Part shown: in pieces, positions 31,748-38,818 of the stretch
How the letters are laid out: each line of letters starts with the position of its first letter
Numbering within the stretch: position 1 is the stretch's first letter
Source: Yersinia bercovieri ATCC 43970
Lineage (GTDB): Bacteria; Pseudomonadota; Gammaproteobacteria; Enterobacterales; Enterobacteriaceae
Assembly: GCF_013282745.1 (NCBI RefSeq)
Contig: NZ_CP054044.1
Location: 2,108,001 to 2,172,000 of the forward strand
Direction of reading: 5' to 3'
Length of the DNA: 64,000 bases
Made by a program: the position numbers and the translations under genes
The notes under the pieces: generated by a model
Seen by the model: only the letters and a program-made list of their open reading frames with translations
What the model was told of the DNA's origin: nothing
Databases searched by the model: none

Positions 31748-31836
31748 TTTGCACTCCTTAAGAATAAAGGTGGCAAAGGTATCTGAGGCGGTCAATAACG
31801 TCGCTATCATGATGATAAAACGTTATTTTTCTCAAA

Positions 31837-32068
31837 TCCCTCCGCCGGTATTAACCGGATCAGGTTCGACGGGTTTGCTCTCAGCAAAAACGTGCTGCGC
31901 CATGGTTGATACAGCGTTGGGCAGTACTCGAAATCCTCACGTACTACGTGTACGCTCCGGTTTCTCCGTGCTGTCCGCCACTGTCTGAACCCGGCTCGCT
32001 GTGTTTTTAACATTTGCGGCACCGGATTGAACTTGGCTAGCGATGTTCTTGCACCCCGTTGAGACGGC
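31837..32068 (-). ncRNA. TPP riboswitch of thiBPQ with a long insertion in P3
   Basis: On the minus strand all conserved thi-box elements appear in order. GGGGTGC is at 32057-32051. The P3 outer stem GCAAGAAC / GTTTTTGC pairs 32052-32045 with 31891-31884. CTGAGA is at 31884-31879, then ACCC. ACCTGAT-CCGGTTAATACCGG with GCGGAGGGA ends near 31837. Normal switches are about 100 nt; this one spans about 232 because 153 nt (31892-32044), including repeat B copy 2, occupy the P3 tip. The P3 end is naturally variable and away from the ligand pockets, so binding is probably kept. It controls thiB 90 bases downstream. Confidence 0.88.
31917..31978. repeat. Dispersed repeat family B, copy 2 (inside the TPP riboswitch P3 arm)
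   Basis: 62 bp, 57 identical to 27502-27563 and in the same orientation. It contains the near-palindrome CGTACTACGTGTACG. It sits in the middle of the 153-nt P3 insertion of the riboswitch. Confidence 0.85.
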
Positions 32069-32106: not shown

Positions 32107-33768
32107 TTATACCTCAGGTGGGGTAAACCAGGCTGATTTGAAGTCAAACCAGCCGAGGGTGTTCATGCGCACGCCGCGCATACTGTGCTGCCCATATAAT
32201 TCTAGCCAGTGATGGAACAGCGGGTGGAATTGATTTTGGCTGACTAATCGTTGGCTCCAGTCCGCCATCGGCAGGCTATTATTGCGCCATGATCCCACGT
32301 CGTGATGCAGCTCATCGTCGAGGCAGTGTTGCAGCAGCGGTAGCTCATACAGGGTGGCAAATAGAGAGAACTCCAGCGGCAGGTAGAAGTTGGCGCTGCC
32401 GAGCCAGATATCGCTCTGCGCGTCGCCTTGATACCAACTGACATAATCCACCGCCTGAATCACCAGCTTGACGCCATGGGCGGCCAGCAGGGTGGTCAGT
32501 GTCTGGCTGATGGCATCAAACTCGGAGTGCTCGCTGTAAAAGGTGAGCGTCAGTTCGCTCAACCCCTCCGGCTTGGGTTCCAGTGTGGTTAGCCGGTTGT
32601 GGTGCCAGCGCGGCAACATGCCGTAAGCCGGTGACCAGTAGCGCTGATAAAAGGGGTCTGCATGGCTGAGTAGGGCGACAGGGGTGAGAAGCCTACAGAG
32701 CCAGCGGCGGATCTCGGGATGACTGGTTTGGCGGGAGCGCTGATCAAACAGTAAAAAGTAGCAGCCCTCCTCCAACCGACTCTCCAGCTCATTTTTACTG
32801 GTGTCATCCGCTTGTAGTTGCACACCGGAGTAGACCAGCTCCTCGGACAGCTCCGGTAGTACCCAGATATTCACCTCATCAATCAATGCGCGGAACCCAA
32901 AATAGTTATCAAACGCCTGAATTTTCAATTGGCTACGATGATTGCGGATCACTGAATAGGGGCCAGTGCCGATAGGGTGGCGCGGGAAGTCGGGCTGACT
33001 TTCCCACTCCTGCGGCAAAATCATGGCGTGTACACTGCCCAACAGCCAGGGTAACCAGTGATCCGGGCTGTTGAGATGCACATCAATGACATAGGGGGTC
33101 GGCGAGCGCACCGCCGTGATATGCGAGAACAGCGGTTGTGGGATCAGACGGGTCAGGCTGGTGATGACATCCTCCATTGCCAGTTCACGGCCATGATGGA
33201 AATGGATGGCGGGGCGTAAATAAAAGCGCCAATGCAGTGGGCTGATGGCTTGCCAGTGGTGAGACAAATCTGGCTCGAGTTCCCCATTTTCCTCATTTAT
33301 TCGCGTCAGGCCATTAAAAATCTGCCGAACCATGTGGGTTTCTGAGCGGCGCAGGGCGGTGCCCGGGAGTAGATTGGGGAGCGGGCGATAATAGAGTACG
33401 CGCAAAATATGTTTTCCCTGACGGAAACTGCGCCCCAACTGGGATAGCAGCATTTGGCGTACCGCTTTTTTATCCCCCACCAACTGTACCAGCTGATCAA
33501 TATTGTCCTGCTCCAGCAACTCGTCGGCCCGCTGCTGTTGCAGTGCCAGCCCGGAGTAGAGGAAGGTCAATTGTGAGCGCTTACCACGCCCCGCTTCCGC
33601 TTGCCAACTCAGCCAGCCCTCATGCTGCATACTGCCCAGCAAGGATCGGACATGGCGACGTGAGCAGCAGAGCACCTCGGCCAGCTCCTGTAAGGTGGTT
33701 TCCGTTGGCTGACCATTAAACCGTTGCCAGAGGCGAATAAATTGCTGTTGCAAACGTGAGGCGGACAT
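32107..33768 (-). CDS. sgrR: Transcriptional regulator SgrR
   Basis: Regulator of the sugar-phosphate (glucose-phosphate) stress response; activates the small RNA SgrS. It has 553 residues from [19 protein letters not shown]; a further upstream ATG adds seven residues. The N-terminal winged helix-turn-helix is about residues 5-75 ([20 protein letters not shown]). It is followed by a solute-binding-protein-like (SBP_bac_5) sensor domain that starts near [22 protein letters not shown]. The end [15 protein letters not shown] is conserved. In E. coli sgrR is next to sgrS; here two genes, ybiY and ybiW, lie between them. It is divergent from ybiY, so SgrR may bind the 124-bp gap. Confidence 0.95.
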
Positions 33769-33892
33769 AAAAGAGGAACTCCACGGCAAATTTCATCAAT
33801 TTTTCTTTCCCTATATTACCCAGATACTGGTTGCCATGGAAAGCGGGTTATCACCGCGATGCTGATGCAGTCACTGCTAATGGGGGAATAAG

Positions 33893-34792
33893 ATGATTTT
33901 TAATGTGCAGCGCTATTCCACTCATGACGGCCCCGGCATTCGTAGTGTGGTATTCCTCAAAGGTTGCTCGCTGAGCTGCCGCTGGTGCCAAAACCCGGAG
34001 AGTCGTTCACCTAAACCTGAAGTGTTATTTGACCCGCGCCTGTGCCTATCTGGCTGTGATTTGTGCCAGCAGAGCTGCCCGCAGGCGATCCAACGTATTG
34101 ATGATCAACTGGTTATTCAGCGTCAATTATTGGCGGTAGAGGATATTCAGGCGCTGACCATTCGTTGCCCCAGTGGTGCGCTGACGGTGTGTGGCCGCCC
34201 GATTGATCTTGAGGCGACGATGGAAACCTTGCTGCGTGACATGCCGTTTTATCGGCGCAGCGGCGGCGGGGTGACCCTATCAGGCGGCGAGCCTTTTATG
34301 CAGCCGGAGGTTGCTGCTGAACTATTGCAGCGCTGCTATCAACTGGGCATTCATACCGCGGTTGAATCTTGCTTACACACCCCGTGGCGCTATATCGCCC
34401 CGGCTTTGCCATGGCTTGATTTGATGCTGGCGGATCTCAAGCATACCGATGAGCGCCGTTTTCAGCAGTGGACTGGCGGTTCGGCCAGGCGGGTGATGGA
34501 TAATTTTTGCAAGTTAGCCGCGGCAGGCACCGCTATTACGGTGCGGGTGCCGCTGATCCCCGACTTCAATGCAGATTGTGACTCGGTGAAAGGAATTGTC
34601 GATTTTGCCGCTGATGAGATTGGGGTGAAAGAGATCCATTTTTTGCCTTACCACACGCTGGGCATCAATAAATATTCGTTGCTAGGTGAAGCCTATCTGG
34701 CCGCCAATAGCCCTTTGGATGCTCCTGACCTGCTGGCCTTCGCGGAAAGTTATGCCCGTGACAAGGGCCTGACCGCAATTTTAAGAGGATGA
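33893..34792 (+). CDS. ybiY: Glycyl-radical enzyme activating enzyme YbiY (PflE)
   Basis: Radical SAM enzyme of 299 residues that installs the glycyl radical on its partner. The radical-SAM cluster motif CSLSCRWC (CxxxCxxC) follows [10 protein letters not shown] near residue 25. A ferredoxin-like insert ([13 protein letters not shown], then a further Cys in IRCPSGAL) gives the extra iron-sulfur clusters common in non-PFL activases. The SAM-binding GGE motif is in [14 protein letters not shown] (about 124-137). The ATG at 33893 follows GGGGGAATAAG. Only 4 bases separate it from ybiW. E. coli carries the same pair elsewhere, next to fsaA, so placement beside sgrR is notable. Confidence 0.9.
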
Positions 34793-34796
34793 CGCA

Positions 34797-37229
34797 ATGA
34801 CCACACTCGATTTGGTAACCTTAAGCGAACGGACAAAACAGCATAAAAACGCACTGATCCACATTGTTAAACCACCGGTATGTACCGAGCGGGCGCTGCA
34901 TTATACCGAGGCTTATCAGCAGCATCAGGATAAACCCTTGCCAGTTCGCCGTGCGCTGGCGCTGGCTCACCATCTACAGCAGCGCACTGTTTGGATCAAA
35001 AACGATGAGCTGATTATCGGTAATCAGGCCAGCCAACTGCGAGCGGCACCGATTTTCCCTGAATACACCGTCGGTTGGATTGAAAGTGAAATTGACCAGC
35101 TGGCTGATCGCCCTGGGGCGGGCTTTTCGGTCAGTGAAGCAGACAAAGCGGTATTGCATCAGTTGTGCCCATGGTGGCGCGGTCAAACCGTGCAGGATCG
35201 CTGCTACGGTATGTTTACCGACGAACAAAAAGCGCTACTGGCGACCGGTATCATCAAGGCGGAAGGCAATATGACCTCCGGTGATGCCCATCTGGCGGTT
35301 AACTTCCCGCTGTTGCTGGAGAAGGGCTTGGATGGTCTACGCACCAAAGTCGCCAGTCGCCGCGCGCGTCTGCAACTGACCGACTGGAGTGATTTGCACA
35401 AAGAGCAATTTCTGAAAGCGATTGATATCTCGCTGGTGGCGCTGAGTGAACATATTGAGCGCTATGGGGCTGTGGCGCAGCAAATGGCGGAGATCGAGAC
35501 GCGCGATTGGCGGCGTGCTGAGCTGCTGGCTATTGCCGAAAACTGCGCGCTGATTGCTCATCAACCGCCGCAGAGCTTCTGGCAAGCTTTGCAGCTGTGC
35601 TACTTCATTCAGCTAATTTTGCAAATTGAATCCAATGGTCACTCGGTCTCCTTTGGTCGCCTCGACCAGTATCTCTACCCATGGTATCGCCGCGATGTGG
35701 AGCTGGAAAATAGCCTGAGTCGCGAGCACGCGATTGAGATGCTGCATAGCTGCTGGCTGAAATTACTGGAAGTGAATAAAATCCGTTCCGGTTCGCACTC
35801 TAAGGCGTCGGCGGGTAGCCCGCTCTATCAAAACGTCACTATTGGTGGACAAAAACTGGTGCAGGGTAGGGCCATTGATGCCGTTAACCCGCTCTCTTAT
35901 GCGGTGCTGGAGTCGTGCGGGCGCTTAAAATCAACCCAGCCAAACCTCAGTGTCCGCTACCATGCGGGGATCAGTGACGATTTCCTCGACGCCTGTGTGC
36001 AGGTCATTCGCTGCGGTTTTGGGATGCCGGCCTTTAATAATGACGAAATCGTTATTCCTGAGTTTATCAAGCTGGGCGTGGAGCCGCAGGATGCCTACGA
36101 CTATGCAGCGATTGGCTGTATTGAGACTGCAGTCGGCGGCAAGTGGGGCTATCGCTGTACTGGCATGAGTTTTATCAACTTTGCTCGCGTGATGTTGGCG
36201 GCGCTGGAACAGGGGCGCGATGCCACATCAGGCCAGGTGTTCTTGCCGCAAGAGCAGGGGCTGTCGCAAGGCAACTTTACTGATTTCGCCCAAGTGATGG
36301 CGCAGTGGGATCAGCAGATCCGCTACTACACCCGTAAATCCATCGAAATCGAGTGTGTGGTAGATACCGTGCTGGAAGAGAACGCCCACGATATTGTCTG
36401 CTCGGCGCTGGTGGATGACTGTATTGAGCGCGGTAAAAGCATCAAGCAGGGGGGCGCCCGTTACGACTGGGTTTCTGGTCTGCAAGTGGGTATCGCCAAT
36501 CTGGGCAACAGTCTGGCCGCGGTACGTAAACTGGTGTTCGAACAACAACTTATCGGCCAGCAACAGCTGGCAACGGCGCTCACCAATGACTTCGCCGGTC
36601 TGAACGGCGAGCAACTGCGCCAGCATCTGATTAATTCAGCCCCGAAATATGGCAATGACGTTGATGATGTTGACCAACTGCTGGTGCGGGCTTATCAGAC
36701 CTACATTGATGAGCTGAAGCAGTATCACAATACCCGTTTTGGTCGCGGGCCTATTGGTGGCACCTATTACGCTGGCACATCATCCATCTCTGCCAATGTG
36801 CCATTTGGTGCGGCGACCATGGCAACACCGGATGGACGCAAGGCGCACAGCCCACTGGCGGAAGGAGCAAGTCCGGCCTCTGGCACTGACCATCTGGGGC
36901 CAACGGCGGTGTTTAACTCACTGTCAAAACTCCCCACCGCCTCGATTCTGGGCGGGGTGTTGCTGAATCAAAAGCTGAATCCGTCCACGTTGGATAACCC
37001 TCGCGATCGTGAAAAATTAATGATGATGTTGCGTACTTTCTTTGAGGAGTATCTGGGCTGGCACGTGCAGTACAACATTGTCTCCCGCGAGACATTAGTG
37101 GATGCCAAGCAGCATCCAGATCGTTACCGCGATTTGGTGGTTAGGGTGGCGGGCTACTCAGCTTTTTTCACCGCACTGTCGCCAGATGCGCAGGACGATA
37201 TTATCGCCCGCACCGAGCATACCCTGTGA
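34797..37229 (+). CDS. ybiW: Glycyl-radical enzyme YbiW (PflF), dehydratase-type
   Basis: 810 residues, the same length as E. coli YbiW and nearly the same sequence in long blocks. The thiyl cysteine is C441 in AAIGCIETAVGGKWGYRC. The glycyl radical site is G786 in VVRVAGYSAFF. The active cysteine is followed by x-Glu, the pattern of GRE dehydratases/lyases rather than of PFL (which has Cys-Cys). It requires YbiY for activation and works only without oxygen. I recall recent work tying YbiW to dehydration of 1,5-anhydroglucitol 6-phosphate, a glucose 6-phosphate analogue; I cannot verify this. That role would fit its place between sgrR and sgrS-setA. AGGATGACGCA before the ATG gives the SD. 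Confidence 0.9.
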   Translation: MTTLDLVTLSERTKQHKNALIHIVKPPVCTERALHYTEAYQQHQDKPLPVRRALALAHHLQQRTVWIKNDELIIGNQASQLRAAPIFPEYTVGWIESEIDQLADRPGAGFSVSEADKAVLHQLCPWWRGQTVQDRCYGMFTDEQKALLATGIIKAEGNMTSGDAHLAVNFPLLLEKGLDGLRTKVASRRARLQLTDWSDLHKEQFLKAIDISLVALSEHIERYGAVAQQMAEIETRDWRRAELLAIAENCALIAHQPPQSFWQALQLCYFIQLILQIESNGHSVSFGRLDQYLYPWYRRDVELENSLSREHAIEMLHSCWLKLLEVNKIRSGSHSKASAGSPLYQNVTIGGQKLVQGRAIDAVNPLSYAVLESCGRLKSTQPNLSVRYHAGISDDFLDACVQVIRCGFGMPAFNNDEIVIPEFIKLGVEPQDAYDYAAIGCIETAVGGKWGYRCTGMSFINFARVMLAALEQGRDATSGQVFLPQEQGLSQGNFTDFAQVMAQWDQQIRYYTRKSIEIECVVDTVLEENAHDIVCSALVDDCIERGKSIKQGGARYDWVSGLQVGIANLGNSLAAVRKLVFEQQLIGQQQLATALTNDFAGLNGEQLRQHLINSAPKYGNDVDDVDQLLVRAYQTYIDELKQYHNTRFGRGPIGGTYYAGTSSISANVPFGAATMATPDGRKAHSPLAEGASPASGTDHLGPTAVFNSLSKLPTASILGGVLLNQKLNPSTLDNPRDREKLMMMLRTFFEEYLGWHVQYNIVSRETLVDAKQHPDRYRDLVVRVAGYSAFFTALSPDAQDDIIARTEHTL

Positions 37230-37275
37230 TTGATTGTGCTAGATGATGTCAGTTGAGTGAAGTGAGTCCTGCTGC

Positions 37276-37307
37276 TGTATTGAGTAGCAAATGTATTGAG
37301 TATCAAA
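37276..37307 (+). repeat. 16-bp tandem repeat within sgrS duplicating the seed core
   Basis: TGTATTGAGTAGCAAA (37276-37291) is followed directly by TGTATTGAGTATCAAA (37292-37307), one mismatch. Each contains TGAGTA, the core of the SgrS-ptsG pairing, and a third TGAGTA belongs to the main seed at 37314-37319, so the spacing is 16 and 17 nt. Confidence 0.9.
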
Positions 37308-37335
37308 AATTTCTGAGTAATGGTGTGTTTCACCA

Positions 37336-37364
37336 GCCAGCAGGATTTTCTGCTGGCTTTTTTT
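37336..37364 (+). terminator. Terminator of SgrS
   Basis: An 8-bp stem GCCAGCAG / CTGCTGGC has a six-base loop and is followed by a seven-base T tract. As in E. coli, partial readthrough could feed setA. Confidence 0.92.
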
Positions 37365-37509
37365 ATTACCCTTGGCACTTGAAGCTGTGGCGTTGTTAGC
37401 TGCAAATTAGTTATCAGAAAAATGATTTTTACCATTAAAATTATGCTGCTTTATATAAGAGCTTCTGTAGCATAGAGATAAATCGCTATTTCTGGCGCTG
37501 GAGCCTGGA

Positions 37510-38691
37510 ATGAAATCTGCACTCACCTTTTCCCGTCGTATCAACCCGGTTTTTCTCGCTTTCTTTGTGGTGGCCTTTCTTTCTGGTATCGCTGGCGCGT
37601 TACAGGCTCCGACATTAAGCCTGTTTTTAAGCACCGAAGTGAAAGTTCGCCCACTCTGGGTTGGTCTGTTTTATACCGTGAATGCCATTGCCGGGATTAC
37701 TGTCAGCTTTATTCTGGCAAAACGCTCCGATTCACGTGGTGATCGCCGCAAACTCATCATGGTCTGTTATCTGATGGCGGTGGGCAACTGCCTGCTATTC
37801 GCCTTTAACCGTGATTATCTGACATTAATTACCGCGGGTGTGTTGCTGGCGTCGGTCGCCAACACCGCCATGCCGCAGATATTTGCCCTCGCGCGTGAAT
37901 ATGCCGACAGTTCTGCGCGTGAAGTGGTGATGTTCAGCTCTATTATGCGTGCGCAGCTCTCATTGGCGTGGGTTATTGGGCCACCGCTGTCGTTTATGCT
38001 GGCACTGAATTATGGTTTTACCCTGATGTTCAGTATTGCCGCTGGTATCTTTGTGCTGAGTGCGTTAGTGGTGTGGTTTATTCTGCCGTCAGTGCCGCGC
38101 GCAGAGCCGGTGGTGGATGCGCCAGTGGTGGTGCAGGGCAGCTTGTTTGCCGATAAAAACGTGTTGCTGCTGTTTATTGCCTCAATGCTGATGTGGACTT
38201 GCAACACCATGTATATCATTGATATGCCACTGTATATCACCGCAAGCCTGGGTCTGCCTGAGCGCTTAGCGGGTTTGTTGATGGGCACTGCCGCCGGGCT
38301 TGAGATCCCCATCATGCTGCTGGCGGGCTATTCGGTTCGGTACTTTGGCAAGCGCAAAATCATGCTATTTGCCGTGCTGGCTGGCGTGCTGTTCTATACC
38401 GGATTGGTGCTGTTTAAATTCAAAACCGCGTTGATGTTGCTACAGATTTTCAATGCCATTTTTATCGGGATCGTCGCGGGTATCGGTATGCTCTATTTCC
38501 AGGATTTAATGCCGGGCAGGGCGGGGGCCGCTACCACGCTGTTTACTAACAGTATTTCAACCGGGGTGATTTTAGCGGGGGTGCTGCAAGGGGGATTGAC
38601 CGAAACCTGGGGACATGATTCGGTATATGTGATGGCGATGGTGCTCTCCATTCTGGCGCTGATTATTTGCGCACGGGTGCGGGAAGCTTAG
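37510..38691 (+). CDS. setA: Sugar efflux transporter, SetA family
   Basis: MFS exporter of 393 residues with about twelve membrane helices. SetA expels glucosides/lactose analogues and is co-regulated with SgrS during sugar-phosphate stress. Family blocks seen are GIAGALQAPTLSLFLS near residue 25, LFYTVNAIAGITVSF, the MFS loop KRSDSRGDRRKLI, and RAGAATTLFTNSISTG near residue 340. The SD GGAG lies 6 bases before the ATG. Its position after sgrS supports assignment as setA rather than setB or setC, which are close paralogues. Confidence 0.9.
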   Translation: MKSALTFSRRINPVFLAFFVVAFLSGIAGALQAPTLSLFLSTEVKVRPLWVGLFYTVNAIAGITVSFILAKRSDSRGDRRKLIMVCYLMAVGNCLLFAFNRDYLTLITAGVLLASVANTAMPQIFALAREYADSSAREVVMFSSIMRAQLSLAWVIGPPLSFMLALNYGFTLMFSIAAGIFVLSALVVWFILPSVPRAEPVVDAPVVVQGSLFADKNVLLLFIASMLMWTCNTMYIIDMPLYITASLGLPERLAGLLMGTAAGLEIPIMLLAGYSVRYFGKRKIMLFAVLAGVLFYTGLVLFKFKTALMLLQIFNAIFIGIVAGIGMLYFQDLMPGRAGAATTLFTNSISTGVILAGVLQGGLTETWGHDSVYVMAMVLSILALIICARVREA

Positions 38692-38708: not shown

Positions 38709-38818
38709 GAGGTTATTGACAAAGTGCCGGTTGCGGAGAGAACAGCTAGATCGTAAAGACGCCATAAATCCTTCCCTGGAGGCTCGAGCCGCGCCATCCC
38801 TGGCGCGGACGCTTTACT
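38709..38818. repeat. Dispersed repeat family A, copy 2 (between setA and leuD)
   Basis: 110 bp with the same ends and core as 12062-12182, shortened by about 11 bases in the middle. It carries the same CGCGCCA / TGGCGCG hairpin and GTAAAG / CTTTAC palindromic arms. It again lies between convergent genes. Confidence 0.85.

Follow-up and report, generated by a model that had tools for sequence, protein, structure and literature searches.

In Escherichia coli, non-metabolised sugar phosphates activate the transcription regulator SgrR, whose gene belongs to the sgrR-sgrST-setA locus. An sgrS of the E. coli type specifies a small RNA with pairing seed and terminator and also encodes SgrT, an inhibitor of sugar uptake, between its promoter and its pairing domain. 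The glycyl radical enzyme YbiW and its activase YbiY belong to a different locus, the fsaA-ybiYW operon of E. coli and Serratia. In the review excerpts used here, the SgrS of Yersinia (Ysr150 or sR005, PMC4585118) is described as 5′-truncated and without sgrT (PMC4021124, PMC4585118, PMC4202721), as a small RNA detected by deep sequencing (PMC4585118, PMC4202721) and as pairing with ptsG; Y. pestis SgrS represses ptsG in E. coli. Here we analyse a stretch of 64,000 nucleotides (nt) of Yersinia bercovieri ATCC 43970 (the window, in whose numbering coordinates are given unless another locus is named). As judged from its sequence, ybiYW sits within the sgrS unit of this stretch, between the promoter block and the SgrS pairing domain and in place of sgrT; the original prediction for this DNA had put the pair beside sgrS. 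We propose that ybiY-ybiW-sgrS(-setA) is a unit driven by SgrR, with an enzyme in the place of SgrT and with SgrS as the 3′ end of the messenger RNA (mRNA), and we assign a probability of roughly 0.72 to this reading.

Position of ybiYW within the sgrS unit

sgrR is located on the minus strand and is followed on the plus strand by ybiY, ybiW, sgrS and setA. This order had been read correctly from the letters by the original prediction: each of the five features is backed by a curated family model or by a homologue of solved structure, and 21 of 25 Yersinia genomes have ybiYW placed between sgrR and sgrS, its orientation unchanged throughout. We refer to these 21 genomes as carriers. The features of the window are:

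32107..33768, minus strand: sgrR, sugar-phosphate stress transcription activator (NCBIfam NF010149, 1045 bits, cut-off 476)
33794..33828, plus strand: conserved block, the ancestral sgrS promoter and presumed SgrR-binding site, at columns 26-60 from the sgrR ATG and upstream of ybiY
33836..33892, plus strand: predicted 5′ leader (57 nt) of a ybiY-ybiW-sgrS transcript, its start deduced from the corresponding distance in the E. coli-type region L178
33893..34792, plus strand: ybiY, radical S-adenosylmethionine activase of YbiW (TIGR02494, 334 bits, cut-off 174)
34797..37229, plus strand: ybiW, glycyl radical dehydratase of 810 residues, activity assigned by orthology (YbiW chains in the Protein Data Bank (PDB), motifs, tree)
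37245..37364, plus strand: SgrS in its Rfam extent (RF00534, 51.4 bits, cut-off 37), putative 3′ end of the ybiYW unit
37313..37325, plus strand: SgrS pairing seed CTGAGTAATGGTG, unchanged in 21 of 21 carriers
37335..37358, plus strand: SgrS terminator hairpin and T run, 10 pairs, 6 of them G-C
37510..38691, plus strand: setA, sugar efflux transporter family (TIGR00899, 527.3 bits, cut-off 522.3)

The conserved block, with a -10-like GATACT at 33823-33828, links the locus to the E. coli-type arrangement. Its core, TTTCCCYATATTANG, is present 37-38 nt from the sgrR ATG in 40 of 40 sgrR regions with at most two mismatches of 15 (34 exact copies; one mismatch in the window), and it is followed by ybiY in 21 of these regions and by sgrS, without insertion, in the other 19. 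None of 73 ybiW loci outside Yersinia contains it. Within the carriers, 32 of the 35 block columns are invariant versus 5 of the next 35; the sgrR-sgrS intergenic region is described as highly conserved in the part of review PMC4021124 that was available. The region upstream of ybiY is thus the ancestral sgrS promoter region, which makes one SgrR-driven unit more likely, and SgrR would bind at this block. In L178 the SgrS model begins 67 nt from the sgrR ATG, and the same distance in the window leads to position 33836, the predicted start of the leader. The distance between the ATG codons of sgrR and ybiY varies from 103 to 261 nt among the carriers. Two ybiY leaders, L154 and L156, have additions downstream of the conserved block: one is longer by a stretch of 80 nt, and the other contains a series of short, nearly identical repeats.

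What follows the block differs between the two arrangements. Of the 15 other genera, 14 have an sgrT-like open reading frame there, as do three of the four non-carrier Yersinia genomes but none of the 21 carriers, which have ybiY-ybiW at this place instead. The insertion of ybiYW in place of the sgrT part explains the published 5′ truncation of Yersinia SgrS. The excerpt of review PMC4585118 does not mention ybiYW in this connection, and our literature search found no account of ybiYW inside the sgrS locus or of its control by SgrR; Horler and Vanderpool (2009), whose study of SgrS homologues was outside that search, may report the gene order. The only paper found with both sgrS and ybiW (PMC4072538) concerns, in the part seen, the evolution of E. 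coli. SgrR, SgrS, SetA, YbiW and the truncation of SgrS are already known; the insertion as its cause did not appear in that search.

Distribution of the arrangement

Both sgrR and SgrS are general features of the genus. sgrR was present in 25 of 25 Yersinia genomes, as was SgrS (RF00534) at E ≤ 0.001; seven of the SgrS matches exceed the Rfam cut-off. At E 1e-100, YbiW was matched in 22, and the YbiW proteins of the 21 carriers are 95-100% identical. In 17 of the 25 genomes there is a second SgrR-like protein, with 49-52% identity across some 310 residues and an open frame of around 600 amino acids; the window genome has none at the same threshold.

Outside the genus the arrangement was not encountered. 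Of 198 genomes drawn evenly from the GTDB family, 68 have a YbiW of at least 80% identity (85 had matches, and 17 of these were left out because they contained paralogues alone or a degraded gene). Only three of the 68, each a Yersinia, have sgrR within 5 kb of ybiW; in the remaining 65 the two genes are separated by at least 226 kb or lie on different contigs, so that the arrangement is found in 0 of 65 sampled ybiW genomes of other genera. Among 80 named ybiW loci, seven, again all Yersinia, have the order sgrR-ybiYW-setA and 62 have fsaA-ybiYW; the other 11 show neither neighbour in the stretch, some being ended by contig edges. The named loci and the genomes of the genus sample overlap, and the samples are therefore not independent. 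The comparison across Yersinia and its relatives, envisaged along with the original prediction, thus reveals a position of ybiYW that is not sporadic (21 of 25 Yersinia versus 0 of 65 other genomes).

Origin of ybiYW and loss of its native control elements

In Serratia the order is rnb-cstA-fsaA-ybiY-ybiW-deoR-pyrF with divergent fsaA in eight of eight named loci. The corresponding site of the carriers reads rnb-cstA-fsaA-deoR-ulaF-like-pyrF, without ybiYW, in all 20 cases examined, the window genome (L207) included; in the 21st carrier, G199, no FsaA-family protein exceeded the cut-off. Both DeoR domains are present in the DeoR-type protein of Yersinia and Serratia alike. In a YbiW tree calculated by a quick method, the 21 carriers group together (100% in the Shimodaira-Hasegawa-like approximate likelihood ratio test, SH-aLRT) and are joined with 12 Serratia rows (98%); an SgrR tree, for which 13 of 15 outgroup rows were used, does not contradict a single origin. 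The tree grouping and the emptied donor site together show one apparent relocation of the native ybiYW pair. A recent import of ybiYW into Yersinia from a distant source was considered and rejected, as the YbiW proteins of the carriers group with Serratia and only the copy of one non-carrier, G217, looks foreign.

On this move the pair was separated from its former control elements. We take the sequence TTGATnnnnATCAA to be an FNR-like box. All 73 named non-Yersinia loci have it upstream of ybiY with no more than two of its 10 positions mismatched (none in 21 loci, one in 37 and two in 15); shuffled sequences contain it in 1.6% of cases with at most one mismatch and in 16% with at most two. 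A palindrome, CTTTCATTCGAAAG, is perfect at the same place in 53 of 73 loci and present with at most two mismatches in 71, against 0 of 730 shuffles. Upstream of ybiY in the 21 carriers both elements are absent, the best matches having 2-4 mismatches for the box, which is chance level, and 5-6 for the palindrome. The palindrome has remained at the fsaA-deoR site (20 of 20 carriers, at most one mismatch), and ybiYW, unlike in the E. coli and Serratia operon, is uncoupled from both fsaA and the DeoR-type regulator.

The half-site next to the palindrome is GTGA in 20 of 20 carriers; in the other loci it is TTGA (61 of 73) or CTGA (12 of 73) and never GTGA (0 of 73). TTGA is an FNR-like and GTGA a CRP-like half-site. 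The change from TTGA to GTGA at the donor site (upstream of fsaA at 3363-3666 of L207 and at 19 further Yersinia sites) accompanies the loss of the genes for the oxygen-sensitive enzyme.

Anaerobic (FNR) control of ybiYW at its present promoter, which the original prediction had assumed for the whole unit, is not supported by these data. With the FNR-like box missing in the carriers, the unit would be linked to anaerobiosis only by the chemistry of its enzyme, which is active only without oxygen according to the consulted section of review PMC12441222.

One Yersinia genome requires separate discussion. G217 (loci L163, L162 and L217) has a scar-like sgrR-sgrS junction, a decayed native fsaA site that has lost deoR and in which the palindrome is degenerate, and elsewhere a foreign-looking fsaA-ybiYW-deoR cassette. 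At the junction the leader keeps the ybiY-leader sequence of the carriers and continues with sequence resembling the tail behind the ybiW stop codon (33 nt at 91%, E 3e-5, with L150 only; most tails match in a 15-nt seed alone). This join makes a deletion of ybiYW from G217 likely but not certain. Alternatively, G217 could represent the state before the insertion, with sgrT already lost and sgrS shortened, so that ybiYW entered later and nothing was deleted here. The placement of the G217 SgrR outside the 21 carriers would agree with this, at weak support (82/35), but the retained leader and tail-like sequences, the altered fsaA site and the possession of a foreign-looking cassette are not easily reconciled with it and we consider it rather unlikely. 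The question bears on the history of the locus and not on its mechanism.

Properties of the encoded proteins

The SgrR product contains the Pfam domains SgrR_N (PF12793, E 6e-45) and SBP_bac_5, and its start is likely the ATG at 33766-33768 rather than the upstream TTG of the mechanical open reading frame. YbiY has a CxxxCxxC motif at residues 25-32. The best PDB matches of YbiW are chains named YbiW (8id7, 8yjn; E = 0), and 683 of its 810 residues are identical to those of one E. coli YbiW. Its catalytic motifs, Cys441-Ile-Glu443 (GCIE) and Gly786 (RVAGY), are conserved in 95 of 95 aligned rows. An assignment as pyruvate formate-lyase was discarded because the pyr_form_ly_1 equivalog was missed (147 bits versus 994).

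According to section 5.1 of review PMC12441222, which was seen in part, E. coli YbiW converts 1,5-anhydroglucitol-6-phosphate (1,5-AG6P) to 1-deoxyfructose-6-phosphate. This bears out the link to 1,5-AG6P made in the original prediction, and by orthology the YbiW of the window is a putative 1,5-AG6P dehydratase. YbiY and YbiW are orthologous to the proteins of the E. coli and Serratia operon, and an FsaA-type aldolase is present elsewhere in the window genome (G000:C1:3453166; NF009296, 361 bits) as well as in 24 of 25 Yersinia genomes overall. We take this aldolase to be the candidate for the step after YbiW.

The SetA protein missed the SetB equivalog (448 bits versus 693). Its role as a sugar exporter, as stated previously, has to be qualified: the hypothesis that SetA exports alpha-methylglucoside has been tested and was not supported, as reported in the excerpt of review PMC4021124.

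SgrS as the proposed end of a ybiYW transcript

SgrS (RF00534) has a single match in the whole genome, and the stems of its terminator vary in the carrier alignment yet still pair. No SgrR-dependent promoter was detected directly before SgrS; the promoter block lies about 3.5 kb before the seed, upstream of ybiY, and has no second copy in the window genome at up to three mismatches. The distance from the ybiW stop codon to the seed is 32-104 nt. In 5 of the 21 carriers it amounts to 32 nt, which leaves no space for a promoter outside ybiW. Within the end of ybiW synonymous variation is ordinary (46%, 37% and 58% of 15-, 20- and 30-codon windows are as low in 20 carriers), and no conserved promoter is therefore visible there. 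Only rows of exactly 810 residues entered this analysis, which left 20 of the 21 carriers and 64 of the 73 other sequences. A scan for the sigma-70 consensus gave one site versus 3.5 expected; it recovered a promoter neither at the ancestral position before ybiY nor before sgrS. No strong internal terminator is predicted within ybiY-ybiW-sgrS: a weak terminator-like site is located in the ybiW end at 37144-37159, and the scan total is not above chance (7 versus 5.0 expected). The short gap, the ordinary variation of the ybiW end and the single promoter block suggest co-transcription without proving it.

The first 15-20 codons of ybiW (34797-34856) show little synonymous variation in the 20 carriers (0.1-0.3% of windows are as low). 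This is not observed in the 64 other genomes, and pairing with SgrS does not explain it.

A second explanation assumes two units, with SgrR driving ybiYW from the old promoter and sgrS having gained its own promoter in the ybiW end or in the gap. The detection of SgrS as a separate small RNA in the deep sequencing cited above would fit, the gap is 60-104 nt long in 16 of 21 carriers, and weak promoters need not be conserved. The ybiW end is free of synonymous constraint, though, the gap shrinks to 32 nt in the remaining five carriers, the gap alignment of all 21 contains no conserved -35/-10-like block, and the old promoter was not duplicated. Altogether we regard two units as improbable and prefer one transcript that ends in SgrS.

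The ptsG gene of the same genome (NF008301, 988 bits) contains a target for SgrS, CACTATTACTCAG, 26 nt before its ATG and over the ribosome-binding region; the complementarity to the seed includes one G-U pair. The predicted duplex has an energy of -23.5 kcal/mol, and shuffled ptsG leaders reach -12.3 kcal/mol on average and -24.8 kcal/mol at minimum. Pairing of SgrS with the starts of ybiY, ybiW and setA was rejected, the values (-13.8, -14.3 and -11.0 kcal/mol) being near the shuffled mean. The start of rpiA (NF001924, 316 bits; about position 1509 of L190, minus strand) contains CACCATGACTCAG, which is complementary to the SgrS seed in 12 of 13 positions and forms a predicted duplex of -21.9 kcal/mol; this may be due to chance.

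Proposed mechanism

We assume that in an ancestor of most Yersinia the pair ybiY-ybiW left the rnb-cstA-fsaA-ybiYW-deoR operon, entered the sgrS unit and displaced sgrT. Non-metabolised sugar phosphate would activate SgrR, as in E. coli, and SgrR would bind and drive the ancestral sgrS promoter to give a single transcript, ybiY-ybiW-sgrS(-setA). The coding part of this transcript would provide the glycyl radical enzyme that removes 1,5-AG6P, an analogue of glucose-6-phosphate. SgrS would be the 3′ end of the mRNA, freed by cleavage (perhaps by RNase E), and would pair with ptsG mRNA and thereby halt uptake; setA would be reached by read-through or from its own promoter. 1,5-AG6P would be among the compounds that activate SgrR. 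The more specific version, in which SgrS is promoterless and cut from the 3′ end of the ybiY-ybiW-sgrS mRNA and in which 1,5-AG6P is a natural signal for SgrR, is put forward tentatively and at slightly less than even odds.

As far as the original prediction of one unit run by SgrR is concerned, the clade-wide pairing of the genes, their one apparent origin and the ancestral sgrS promoter in front of ybiY speak for it, and anaerobic control of the promoter finds no support. The locus shares with E. coli sgrR-sgrST-setA the regulator, the divergent promoter block, the seed and terminator of SgrS, the downstream setA and the thi and leu flanks. With SgrT displaced by YbiW, the protein arm of the response would no longer inhibit uptake but would enzymatically remove what provokes the stress. 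This suggests that an alarm raised by toxic sugar phosphates may have come to turn on the cure, YbiW, as well. If true, a dual-function RNA (SgrT and pairing) has turned into an operon mRNA that codes for the cure and also bears the brake on uptake, and the circuit is closed on one transcript.

The position of SgrS resembles that of small RNAs derived from mRNA 3′ ends, such as SdhX (PMC6393394, seen in part), in that an Hfq-type RNA with seed and terminator immediately follows the final gene of a metabolic operon and, in Yersinia, would share its terminator. In contrast to SdhX, the Yersinia RNA predates the operon: the genes apparently entered the unit of the RNA, the promoter would be that of the RNA itself, and processing is presumed.

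Several observations weigh against this model. Three Yersinia genomes of one clade (G204, G211 and G216) have sgrR-sgrS-setA and no YbiW match, and in G217 the insertion site is empty and ybiYW is found elsewhere in the genome. Outside Yersinia only 7 of the 35 block columns are invariant (15 genera, aligned ungapped and partly with a 1-nt shift), and the conservation of the block is partly owed to sgrR because the region doubles as promoter and leader of that gene. The sigma-70 scan misses the ancestral promoter too and hence cannot discriminate, and a small SgrS in deep sequencing fits cleavage and an own promoter alike. One of at least 300 shuffles matched the strength of the ptsG duplex, and the seed complement at up to one mismatch occurs at 17 sites besides itself versus 10 for the reversed control, a modest enrichment. 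Finally, the response of SgrR to 1,5-AG6P is putative, and the control of ybiYW by SgrR is proposed from sequence comparison.

A mere coincidence, with ybiYW landed by chance, expressed weakly or otherwise and unrelated to sugar-phosphate stress, could draw on the two leaders that accepted insertions but is very improbable in view of the intact and nearly identical genes of 21 genomes with their conserved catalytic motifs, the nearly invariant promoter block and a YbiW substrate that is itself a phosphorylated glucose analogue (PMC12441222, in the section consulted).

The proposed SgrR-driven unit would be of relevance in several respects. Artificial sugars are the usual means of eliciting the sgrS response, and the presence of YbiW in the sgrS unit points to a naturally occurring glucose-6-phosphate analogue as a candidate natural stressor. 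The locus also explains why Yersinia SgrS is truncated and, because donor and acceptor sites can both still be read, offers a datable example in which an operon changes its regulator and an independent small RNA would become the end of an mRNA.

Neighbouring features

sgrR is preceded by thiBPQ-like genes with a thiamine pyrophosphate riboswitch, and leu genes come after setA. The riboswitch is located at 31820-31914 and is adjoined by a match to the Xanthomonas small RNA family sX9 at 31939-32012 (48.7 bits, cut-off 44), which may be spurious. The Yersinia small RNA Ysr224 (RF02770, 102 bits) is found at 38709-38815 and starts 18 nt past the stop codon of setA.

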